NCBI GenBank assembly: GCA_903940225.1
Contig: CAJAKC010000022.1
Location: 62,001-126,000 of the forward strand
Origin: an uncultured Microbacteriaceae bacterium
Lineage (GTDB): Bacteria > Actinomycetota > Actinomycetes > Actinomycetales > Microbacteriaceae
Length of the DNA: 64,000 nt
Direction of reading: 5' to 3'
This document shows positions 25,981-62,908 of the stretch, in pieces (the stretch's first letter is position 1; each line of letters begins with the position of its first letter). The position numbers and the translations under genes were made by a program. Under the pieces are notes generated by a model, which made no database searches, was not told the origin of the DNA, and was given only the letters and a program-made list of their open reading frames with translations.

Positions 25981-26040
25981 ACAGACTTACAATATTGTAA
26001 TTATCCACGCCTGTGGATAATTAGGTGCATAAGTCTGTTA
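25979..26040. terminator. Nested inverted repeat between convergent crgA and rhomboid, containing DnaA boxes
   Basis: Outer arms AACAGACTTA (25980-25989) and TAAGTCTGTT (26030-26039) enclose inner arms TAATTATCCAC (25998-26008) and GTGGATAATTA (26013-26023) around a 4-nt GCCT loop. As RNA it folds on either strand and probably acts as a bidirectional terminator. The inner arms are also DnaA boxes: TGTGGATAA at 26012-26020 is a perfect match to TTATCCACA in reverse and TTATCCACG at 26001-26009 has one mismatch. Confidence 0.65.
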
Positions 26041-46914: not shown

Positions 46915-47233
46915 GATAAACCTTCCACTTTCGTGCGGTCTCTCATTGTGTCACAATCGTTCCGCGTTTGCTCAATGGGTTTCGTTAACGAAATCTAGTC
47001 ATCATCTTCATATAGCTCAGTAATCGCATTAACCGTTGTGGATATGTGGATAACCCTGTGGCAACGCCACGAACAGTGAAAACTACAACCGTGAAAGTTG
47101 TGAACAGCCTGTGCAGGAGCGGAGAAAACAAGGGAGCCGGCCGATCTAATTTAAACGTTGTGCACAACCAGGACATATTTCGAACAAGTAATCCACAAGA
47201 AAAGAACCCTAATTGTGCATAAATAGCGACTAC
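46915..47233. other. oriC: origin of replication between dnaN and dnaA
   Basis: No gene lies here. DnaA boxes include a perfect TGTGGATAA (47045-47053, reverse) and near matches TGTGGATAT (47038-47046), TAATCCACA (47189-47197) and TGTGCATAA (47214-47222, reverse); TTGTGCACA-type sequence sits at about 47158-47167. An A/T-rich stretch (about 46981-47035: GTTAACGAAATC, CATCTTCATATAG) could be the unwinding element. Position between dnaA and dnaN is the actinobacterial norm. Confidence 0.85.
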
Positions 47234-48604: not shown

Positions 48605-48808
48605 GAGACTTTCACTTTGGGGGCTTGTAGATAAATCACTATCTTATCCATAATTCGTTTTCCACAACAAAGGACCGCCTCCCTGTGGAAAACCCCTGAA
48701 GTACCAACGGGCCCAGTTTGACTCGGTCCACCATTTCGCTTATTCTTGTGAGGTTGCGCTCTGGGCGCAGCACCAACCAAGCGTCCGGCTCACAGCCGAG
48801 GAGATTCC
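48605..48808. promoter_or_regulatory. dnaA-rpmH divergent promoter region with DnaA boxes
   Basis: DnaA-box-like sequences TTATCCATA (48644-48652), TTTTCCACA (48658-48666) and TGTGGAAAA (48684-48692, reverse). For rpmH a textbook promoter: TTGACT (48718-48723), 17-nt spacer, TATTCT (48741-48746). GATAAGAT-like sequence near 48640-48650 on the minus strand may be the dnaA -10. Confidence 0.75.
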
Positions 48809-60705: not shown

Positions 60706-61158
60706 ATGGCTAAGCTCATTCTCACTCACGAGGTCTCCGGCCTCGGTACCGCTGGCGACATCGTTGATGTCAAGAACGGTTACGCACGCAACTATCTCGT
60801 CCCCCAGGGACTCGCAATCGTGTGGACGCGCGGTGGCGAAAAGCAGGTGACCGACATCAAGTCGGCTCGTGCCGCTCGCGCACTGGCTTCGCACGAGGAC
60901 GCCGTTGCTCTCAAGACCAAACTCGAAAGTGTAACCATCACGGTTCCTGCTTCGGCTGGGGCAGAAGGTCGCCTCTTTGGTTCGATCAAGACCGCCGACA
61001 TCGCAGCGGCCGTCGAGGCTGCTGGTCTCGGTCAGATCGACAAGCGTTCGATTCAACTGCAGGCCGCAATCAAGGCAACCGGCGCTTATTCAGCGACGGT
61101 CAAGCTGCACGATGGCGTTGTGGCAACACTCGCACTGAAGGTCGTTTCCGCAAAGTAA
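60706..61158 (+). CDS. rplI: 50S ribosomal protein L9
   Basis: A 150-aa L9 with the N-terminal ribosome-binding domain ([34 protein letters not shown]) and C-terminal domain. AGGAGA upstream of ATG. Last gene of the rpsF operon. Confidence 0.96.
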
Positions 61159-61177
61159 CCGACCGTTCTATGCTCGA

Positions 61178-61214
61178 AAGCGCCCCCAAAACAGTGGTTT
61201 TGGGGGCGCTTTTA
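61178..61214 (+). terminator. Strong intrinsic terminator of the rpsF operon
   Basis: AGCGCCCCCAAAAC pairs perfectly with GTTTTGGGGGCGCT around an AGTG loop, followed by TTTT. Confidence 0.93.
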
Positions 61215-61552
61215 TGTCCCTCGGCCGCTCACGATGTTGTGGAAAGGTTAAAGGTTCAACCTGAACTCTAAACAACTTTCCCCACAGCCACATTTTCATC
61301 AAAACATCGGGTCAGGGGCTGTTTTGAGGAAATCGCCGAGTGTTTTATCCACAGTTCTCCACAGCCTGTCCACACCTTTATTCGGCGTGTTTCACAATTT
61401 CCCCACAGACTTATACACAGGGTGGTTTGCATTGTTTCACGGCCTTCCCTAGCGTTCAGTAGTCAGTGATGGGCGTGGCGGTGAGAAATGTCCCAGCTCA
61501 CGCTCATACTGAAAACCCGAACCCATCCGACGACAGCAAAGGAGGCGTGATC
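61215..61552. promoter_or_regulatory. DnaA-box-rich leader and promoter region of dnaB
   Basis: No gene is seen. DnaA-box-like sites: TTCCCCACA (61278-61286), perfect TTATCCACA (61345-61353), TTCTCCACA (61356-61364), CTGTCCACA (61366-61374), TTCCCCACA (61399-61407), TTATACACA (61411-61419), all in the same orientation. An open frame upstream of 61553 exists but the ribosome-binding site argues against using it. Confidence 0.7.
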
Positions 61553-62908
61553 ATGGCCGGACCGCAGCTCGAATTAGTTCCCGAAGGCACCGGTGAAAAT
61601 CGCGTTCCGCCGAACGACGTCGCCGCCGAAAAGTCCACTCTGGGCGGAATGCTTCTGTCCAAGGACATCATCGGTGAGGTCTCGGAAGTCGTCAAGGGAC
61701 GAGATTTTTACCTGCCCAAGCACGAGATCATTTTCGACGCAATCATTTCACTCTTCGCTAAAGGCGACCCCGCCGACACGATCTCGTTGGGTGACCACCT
61801 CGCCAAGCAGGGCGATCTCCAGAAAATCGGTGGGGCCTCCTACCTGCACGAACTCGCGAGCTTCGTTCCGACCGCTGCGAACGCAACGTACTACGCGTCG
61901 ATTGTCGCGGACAAGTCAATTCTGCGTGGACTCGTCACGACGGGAACTCGAATCACGCAACTCGGGTTTGCGGCCGAGGGTGAACCCATGGATCTCGTCA
62001 ACGAGGCTCAAGCAGAGGTCTTCTCGATCGGGCGCAGTGCCCGAGCCGACGAGGCCGTTCAAGTTTCAGACGCGCTCGTCGCCGCGATAGACGAAATGGA
62101 AGCAATTGCCGGGCGCAACGGTGCGCACATCGAAATCCCCACCGGCTTCCGCGAACTCGACACTCTCACCAACGGACTTCACCCGGGGCAACTAGTCCTT
62201 ATCGCCGCACGACCGGCACTGGGAAAGTCGACCCTCGCTCTCGACATCGCCCGCAGCGCGGCAATCAAGTCGAACCAGCCCACCGTGTTCTTTTCACTCG
62301 AAATGTCTCGGTCGGAAATCGCGATGCGACTTCTCTCGGCGGAAACCAGCATTTTCCTGCACAAAATGCGCAACGGAACGATTGACAGCCAAGGCTGGAA
62401 GCGAATCTCCCAGAAGCAGGCCGATCTCGCGAACGCACCGTTGTACATCGACGACAGCCCGAACCTCACGCTCGTCGAAATTCGCGCCAAGTGCCGCAGA
62501 ATGAAGCAGCAGCACGGTCTCAAGCTCATTGTTATTGACTACCTACAACTCATGTCGTCCGGCAAGCGTGTGGAAAACCGCCAGCAAGAAGTCTCCGAGT
62601 TTTCCCGTTCACTCAAGCTTCTGGCCAAGGAATTGGGAGTTCCCATCATCGCCCTGTCGCAGCTCAACCGAGGACCGGAACAGCGCCAAGACAAGCGGCC
62701 GATGCTGTCTGACCTTCGCGAATCGGGCTCACTCGAACAAGACGCCGACATCGTGGTGCTCCTTCACCGCGAACGCTATGCCGAAGACGGGGATGCCAAG
62801 AACGACGCCGAACTGATCGTCGCCAAGCATCGAAACGGTGCGACCGCGACCATCACCGTGCTCTTCGAGGGTGGCTTCTCTCGGTTCAGCGACATGGCGC
62901 CGGTGTAG
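61553..62908 (+). CDS. dnaB: Replicative DNA helicase DnaB
   Basis: A 451-aa hexameric helicase: N-terminal domain (about 20-125), linker, RecA-like motor with Walker A in AARPALGKSTLALDIARS, Walker B IVIDYLQLM, and the arginine-finger region SGSLEQDADIV. No intein, unlike many mycobacteria. ATG at 61553 chosen because AAAGGAGG lies 8 nt upstream and it gives the family's normal length. Confidence 0.95.
   Translation: MAGPQLELVPEGTGENRVPPNDVAAEKSTLGGMLLSKDIIGEVSEVVKGRDFYLPKHEIIFDAIISLFAKGDPADTISLGDHLAKQGDLQKIGGASYLHELASFVPTAANATYYASIVADKSILRGLVTTGTRITQLGFAAEGEPMDLVNEAQAEVFSIGRSARADEAVQVSDALVAAIDEMEAIAGRNGAHIEIPTGFRELDTLTNGLHPGQLVLIAARPALGKSTLALDIARSAAIKSNQPTVFFSLEMSRSEIAMRLLSAETSIFLHKMRNGTIDSQGWKRISQKQADLANAPLYIDDSPNLTLVEIRAKCRRMKQQHGLKLIVIDYLQLMSSGKRVENRQQEVSEFSRSLKLLAKELGVPIIALSQLNRGPEQRQDKRPMLSDLRESGSLEQDADIVVLLHRERYAEDGDAKNDAELIVAKHRNGATATITVLFEGGFSRFSDMAPV

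Follow-up and report, generated by a model that had tools for sequence, protein, structure and literature searches.

An ordered array of DnaA-box-like sites conserved upstream of dnaB in Microbacteriaceae and other Actinomycetes, a probable DnaA-dependent promoter module

In the window (the whole stretch of DNA analysed, 64 kb from an uncultured Microbacteriaceae bacterium), the replicative helicase gene dnaB (61553-62908, + strand; identified by PF00772) is preceded by six DnaA-box-like 9-mers, all on the + strand between positions 61278 and 61419, whose layout is conserved among relatives and remains attached to dnaB. We consider that DnaA probably binds this array and thereby controls the dnaB promoter, so that dnaB transcription would be tied to the level or the ATP-state of DnaA, most likely in the form of activation.

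The array and its surroundings in the window

The array is composed of TTCCCCACA (box 1, 61278-61286, two mismatches to the consensus), the perfect TTATCCACA (box 2, 61345-61353), TTCTCCACA (box 3, 61355-61363, one mismatch), CTGTCCACA (box 4, 61366-61374, two mismatches), a second TTCCCCACA (box 5, 61399-61407, two mismatches) and TTATACACA (box 6, 61411-61419, one mismatch), with box starts spaced by 67, 10, 11, 33 and 12 bp. Box 6 reads TTATCCACA in the family consensus and is the best conserved of the six. All the sites given in a preliminary description of this DNA were recovered, as was the position that it assigned to the array, between a strong terminator and dnaB: the rplI terminator hairpin (61177-61212; read from the sequence, and not reported by a simple terminator scanner) has a perfect 16-bp stem and a 4-nt loop. 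The upstream gene rplI (60706-61158, + strand; assigned by open reading frame, position and synteny with relatives) lies outside the module, and its product has tblastn matches in 106 of 111 dnaB loci (missing in L020, L042, L044, L071 and L087). A sequence scan found an inverted, two-mismatch box-like site, CTTTCCACA (61238-61246, - strand), at whose position ten loci of the genus carry TTTTCCACA. Furthermore, the alignments delimit three conserved motifs that are not boxes: AAGGTTCAACC (61251-61261; family consensus near AACCYTCAACC), GGTCAG (61310-61315, + strand; GCAGGTCAG in the order and class) and CGGCGTG (61383-61389, + strand; CGGCGTTTC in the family), of which GGTCAG and CGGCGTTTC may be sites of a partner protein.

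Between the array and the gene we recognise a putative dnaB promoter (61427-61455, + strand), called by its conserved position relative to box 6 and consisting of TTGCAT (61427), a 17-bp spacer and TAGCGT (61450); a strict sigma-70 consensus scan found no promoter at the array. The mechanical dnaB open reading frame begins at GTG 61466, and many relatives in the genus match it from about residue 28-30. We propose ATG 61553 as the start codon, since these relatives and a ribosome-binding site read from the sequence (AAAGGAGG, 61538-61545, + strand) point there. A possible second dnaB promoter (61488-61520; TGTCNN...CATACT, with TAGANC in relatives) is located between the array promoter and this start; the sequences aligned for the family share a TGTCgG block there.

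The density of the array greatly exceeds what the chance models yield. Across 60 first-order Markov windows of 64 kb, the maximum number of same-strand sites (at most two mismatches) per 142 bp was 2 in 46 simulations and 3 in 14, vs 6 in the array, and a local model with the composition of the surrounding 300 bp reached its maximum of 4 sites in 9 of 3000 runs. The window as a whole contains 121 sites with at most two mismatches, vs 92 expected (none of 100 shuffles was as high). At genome scale the sites with at most one mismatch are not enriched (121 vs 138 for a backward control pattern), so that it is the clustering which is unusual. The perfect TTATCCACA occurs five times in the 1.37-Mb assembly, three of them inside the window (downstream of crgA, in the dnaN-dnaA region and in the dnaB array); the other two are found outside it, at G000:C3:7856 and G000:C12:17845. 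It is very improbable, in our view, that the repeats bind another protein or reflect local composition and are unrelated to DnaA. It is true that several sites differ from the consensus at two positions, that GGTCAG and CGGCGTTTC, though conserved, are not DnaA boxes, and that the box lacks enrichment in the genome; against this, the best conserved site of the family consensus is TTATCCACA itself, the chance models fail to produce the cluster, and DnaA is reported to bind upstream of dnaB in mycobacteria (PMC7738170).

The natural yardstick is the dnaN-dnaA intergenic region (46915-47233), the presumed oriC, the end of which lies about 14 kb from the array, as previously described. The earlier assertion that the array is denser than oriC holds when two-mismatch sites are counted and fails at one mismatch or fewer, where the array has three boxes, the dnaN-dnaA region four and the region upstream of dnaA (48605-48700) four. 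The latter four, in both orientations, are packed within 67 bp (48626-48692), an arrangement that fits autoregulation of dnaA.

Conservation, geometry and attachment to dnaB

The family set comprised 111 dnaB loci (30 automatic, one, and 80 more) from records labelled Microbacteriaceae or less exactly named actinobacteria, with some strains present twice across subsets and with the window itself represented by L001 and L002. After identical and very short sequences had been dropped, 104 distinct sequences were aligned, and their conserved core measures 217-221 bp in 83, 209-212 bp in 15 and other lengths in 6. The family consensus (alignment A1, 75 of 87 representatives) reads, 5' to 3', AACCTTCAACC, TAAACA, TTTCTnCACACA, CCTGGTCAGA, GTTnTCCACAG, TnTCCACA, TTnTnCACA, CGGCGTTTC, TTnTCCACAG, GTTATCCACAGG, TTTG and CCTAGnGT. 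The spacing is largely fixed: upstream of the end of the last box, other boxes end at 12 bp in 98 of the 104 sequences, at 44 bp in 84, at 55 bp in 82 and at 67 bp in 69 (12, 45, 56 and 66 bp in the window), and downstream of it a TTG/TTT begins 7 bp away in 90 sequences and the first TAnnnT 30-31 bp away in 84. No conserved base pairing (0 pairs) was detected in the 75 aligned sequences, by which an RNA leader or riboswitch within the array was rejected and which indicates that the array acts as DNA; the only known Rfam RNAs in the window are three tRNA matches.

For comparison with oriC we used 30 dnaA loci, three of them without a dnaN match. Within the family genomes, the best 200-column mean pairwise identity is 0.540 for the dnaB array (16 sequences) and 0.458 for oriC (11 sequences), and the best 100-column values are 0.608 and 0.577; by this measure the array is conserved at least as well as oriC. 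A stronger contrast, with oriC much less conserved than the array (0.32 vs 0.51), was abandoned since it came from a preselected core and the best-window gap is smaller.

The array could on these grounds be imagined as a second initiation element or as part of a split origin, as was earlier suggested, given that its box number (two-mismatch sites included) and its conservation equal or exceed those of oriC. We regard this as very unlikely. The array is adjacent to neither dnaA nor dnaN, and in the window the AT skew turns positive near 50 kb, close to dnaA and not near dnaB (the GC skew signal in the window was too weak to be used for placing the origin). Moreover, its softest point is less AT-rich than that of the family oriC: the least GC content over 30 bp has a median of 0.35 in 16 arrays vs 0.20 in 11 oriC regions, with overlapping ranges (0.17-0.50 and 0.07-0.40), and a median of 0.27 in family oriC stretches of the same length as the array; the values in the window are 0.33 for the array and 0.27 for oriC, and a comparison restricted to the genus gives similar medians (0.30 vs 0.27). 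The array also follows dnaB and not the origin, as the following gene arrangements illustrate.

In the 15 family genomes with both genes on one contig (window included), dnaA and dnaB are separated by 13-31 kb in 13 cases, by 57 kb in G019 and by 452.5 kb in G015, and in ten order genomes the distance is 30-267 kb. The array is kept before dnaB in G015 (L015) despite this separation. In L080 and L084, where rplI is 2.5 kb away, the boxes are still found inside the last 360 bp before the dnaB match, and the candidate explanation of an rplI-linked element was rejected on this account. As the array tracks dnaB in all three loci, we conclude that the element belongs to dnaB. The same facts bear on the possibility that the array serves for DnaA titration or as a DnaA-state locus, removing or resetting DnaA once it is duplicated near oriC, with dnaB as a mere neighbour. 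The short dnaA-dnaB distance in 13 of 15 family genomes speaks for it, as do the presence of a DnaA-box cluster outside oriC, the length and order of the array, the conserved non-box motifs in it, to which a bending protein could bind, and the case of B. subtilis and S. coelicolor, where a review describes datA-analogous clusters as keeping untimely initiation in check (PMC5742627). The retention of the array with dnaB at 452.5 kb from dnaA speaks against it, together with the fixed distance to the promoter-like element in most sequences (84 to 90 of 104) and a number of boxes that, at one mismatch or fewer, does not exceed that of oriC. We hold titration to be unlikely as the main role; it may be a second effect or a by-product of the promoter module.

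Beyond the family, 89 order and class loci were reduced to 88 (L121 had no dnaB match) and then to 78 upstream regions of 650 bp, by removal of eight family members (L115, L116, L120, L125, L131-L134) and of the repeated genomes L144 and L160; of 118 class genomes, the loci of 30 came from the automatic collection and those of 40 others were retrieved manually. Boxes were defined here by at most two mismatches (at most one for crgA, below) to TTATCCACA or TTGTCCACA, with T4 and C6 fixed. The 78 regions contain on average 4.86 same-strand and 2.08 opposite-strand boxes, vs a shuffled expectation of 0.61 (full set of 88 regions); at least four same-strand boxes are present in 62 regions and fewer in 16, and the majority is same-strand in 69 and opposite-strand in 6. 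Since the opposite-strand boxes are also raised above the shuffled level (2.1 vs 0.6), the same-strand orientation is a strong tendency and no rule. Of the 78 regions, the family profile matches 53 at E <= 0.001, a number that rises to 72 at E <= 0.1, and this partial matching implies that some regions have diverged from the family form or lost the array; in a small database, 76 of 83 order and class regions match it at E <= 0.1, and 62 of these 83 passed the inclusion threshold for an order/class array alignment (five family members included). Of 20 genomes that belong to the phylum but fall outside the class, 3 have four or more same-strand boxes (means of 1.15 same-strand and 0.60 opposite-strand boxes, 0.44 in shuffles). 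Judged by these counts, the array belongs mainly to the class, and a few candidates exist beyond it. The preliminary description proposed to check its reading by asking whether relatives keep the boxes before dnaB; they do so in family, order and class.

A second array and a candidate hairpin RNA

A model built from the array sequence only (R1), with matches counted anywhere in the genome, hits 88 of 98 class genomes at E <= 0.01; its second match in the window genome is oriC. We took 20 long R1 matches that are either remote from dnaB (about 1.3 Mb away in G110) or on a different contig. All 20 of these second arrays are followed by a long hairpin, and in 13 a TTGAC/TTGCC...TAnnnT element follows the array by pattern (in the rest, an element that is off-pattern or already passed was recognised by eye). 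The array consensus at dnaB (order/class set) and that at the RNA have in common CACAG..GTGGA, CGCAGGTCAG, TCCACAG boxes and a final TTG. Such combinations of second array, promoter-like element and hairpin are collected as loci L201-L250 and L271-L288, from class genomes and one order genome. That a second copy heads an RNA gene in other genomes, in G110 so far from dnaB, argues both against titration near oriC and against a second origin.

The RNA alignment (A2) comprised 15 hairpins, with the five second-array loci of family f36 left out, and 11 of its 22 pairs are changed on both sides. The hairpin model derived from it (R2) has matches at E <= 0.001 in 57 of the 118 class genomes, including 47 with E <= 1.1e-6, and in one order genome (G040) at 6e-9; it has no match in the window genome and only weak matches in 25 family genomes (best E 0.003). 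When these 47 sequences are aligned, pairing holds in 94.5% of cells, and both sides have changed in 18 of the 22 pairs, a level reached by none of 500 shuffles; this alignment was fitted to the R2 model, which favours pairing, and slid controls pair at only 36-48%. The hairpin loop is near CGCAAGGGGAAGGCG (CGCAAGGGGAAGGCG in the first alignment). No Rfam family matched at or above the gathering score in the 13 of 20 second-array loci searched. The f36 loci show the array and, by eye, a related-looking hairpin; four of the five were searched with R2 and gave no match at 1e-4.

The RNA is preceded by three or more same-strand boxes in all 15 genomes used for training, as follows from their choice, and in 21 of the 33 independent ones; the other 12 belong to f40 (seven), f34 (four) and f24 (one). 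The f40 representatives (L272, L273, L275, L276, L279, L282 and L283) are small genomes that carry the hairpin RNA with fewer than three upstream boxes, and there either the RNA outlives the array or it is regulated otherwise.

In M. tuberculosis the small RNA MTS2975, placed between Rv3843c and Rv3844, is reported to be reduced in stationary phase (PMC3207917), and its locus lies beside a DnaA site; the DnaA site that borders the RNA annotation Rv3843c-RVnc0040 is described as having no obvious correspondence in other species (in the relevant passage of PMC7738170). We consider the second array a candidate counterpart of the latter site. When MTS2975 itself was considered as the second-array RNA, model R3 gave only weak matches in family f22 (E <= 0.05 in 10 of the 41 genomes, the best at 9e-6), which likely represent chance hairpins. 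A search of the open-licence PMC literature for DnaA boxes together with a small RNA in Actinobacteria returned no paper, and such absence is weak evidence.

Taken together, we tentatively put forward, as an idea with somewhat less than an even chance of being right, that Actinomycetes possess a portable DnaA promoter module of about 190-220 bp (same-strand boxes with GCAGGTCAG), one copy of which would drive dnaB and a second copy, present in many families of the class and absent from the window genome and the family members searched, an undescribed hairpin RNA of about 90 nt with a nearly invariant apical loop. If this is true, replication initiation would control helicase supply and a regulatory RNA together; the array placed before a structured RNA that lacks an Rfam match where searched makes a concrete case, open to test, for a DnaA-controlled RNA.

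Known DnaA regions and the proposed role of the array

DnaA binding upstream of dnaB is already known from mycobacteria and is not new in itself. It was found by pull-down in vitro with M. tuberculosis, where the site is one of five strong regions of the genome; ChIP-seq in M. smegmatis yielded homologues of the same five, and an M. tuberculosis DnaA mutant with weaker binding upstream of dnaB under-expresses dnaB (PMC7738170). The same report notes agreement with Caulobacter, a member of a distant phylum in which DnaA is likewise found at the dnaB upstream region (cited in PMC7738170). Our search of open-licence PMC for DnaA boxes upstream of dnaB in actinobacteria as such found no paper, an absence that again counts as weak evidence.

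Four notable box clusters are present in the window: in the dnaN-dnaA region, upstream of dnaA, upstream of dnaB and, as an inverted pair, downstream of crgA, the gene that we take to be Rv0011c of M. tuberculosis. The pair (TTATCCACG-CC-TGTGGATAA) spans 26001-26020 and extends, with a third, two-mismatch site, to 26032. The gene crgA is present in 59 of 60 genomes. Of 30 crgA loci, one of which is that of the window, 24 have two or more boxes with at most one mismatch in the 300 bp after the gene, the mean over the 30 loci being 2.37 boxes there vs 0.17 in the 400 bp before it. The usual form, read by eye, is TTACAnnnnTGTAATTATCCACnnnTGTGGATAA; in relatives a TTACAnnnnTGTAA-type palindrome adjoins the pair. 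As the DnaA site at Rv0010c-Rv0011c is described as a palindrome of two DnaA-box-like sequences (PMC7738170), the crgA-side pair looks, on its sequence, like the counterpart of that site. The clusters at oriC, upstream of dnaA and beside crgA would correspond to three more of the five mycobacterial regions (as given in PMC7738170), so that four of the five likely have a counterpart in the window. What distinguishes our observations is the class-wide array with its largely fixed spacing and extra motifs, since the pertinent passages of PMC7738170 note neither a box layout nor conservation outside mycobacteria; conversely, the mycobacterial site is known from binding and the array in the window from its sequence.

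Among other systems, datA of E. coli and the clusters of B. subtilis and S. coelicolor (as reviewed in PMC5742627) resemble the array in being DnaA-box clusters outside the origin, here near oriC. Unlike them, the array adjoins a promoter-like element of dnaB, accompanies that gene to other positions and is repeated before an RNA gene. The nrdAB promoter of E. coli is regulated by DnaA and has one or two boxes, with a DnaA box next to the -35 element. The array shares the adjacency of a box to the -35 element (putative in the window) and differs in having six same-strand boxes over 142 bp.

For the preferred reading, that of a DnaA-dependent dnaB promoter, we envisage that DnaA molecules would line up on the six same-oriented boxes and that the DnaA at the last one, whose centre is some 47 bp upstream of the predicted start of transcription, beside the -35 element, could contact RNA polymerase; dnaB transcription would then depend on the level or ATP-state of DnaA, most likely through activation, and helicase supply would follow the initiation cycle. 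The suggestion of the preliminary description that helicase expression responds to DnaA is well supported by the conserved boxes, by their mostly fixed distance to the promoter-like element and by the mycobacterial binding and expression effect, and those mycobacterial data are the best evidence for activation (PMC7738170). The position of the second copy, likewise in front of a promoter-like element, also speaks for a promoter module. In the window organism, DnaA binding, the promoter call and the direction of regulation are what we infer from these comparisons. The reading is tempered by the fact that half of the six window sites carry two mismatches to the consensus. The conserved stretch of roughly 200 bp is also longer than simple activation would require, so that the array may have a further function.

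The coupling of initiation to gene expression is poorly known in actinobacteria, and the array supplies a defined DNA element that is open to mutation. That a DnaA array of largely fixed geometry precedes dnaB across the class suggests a long-standing control of helicase supply by DnaA in these bacteria.
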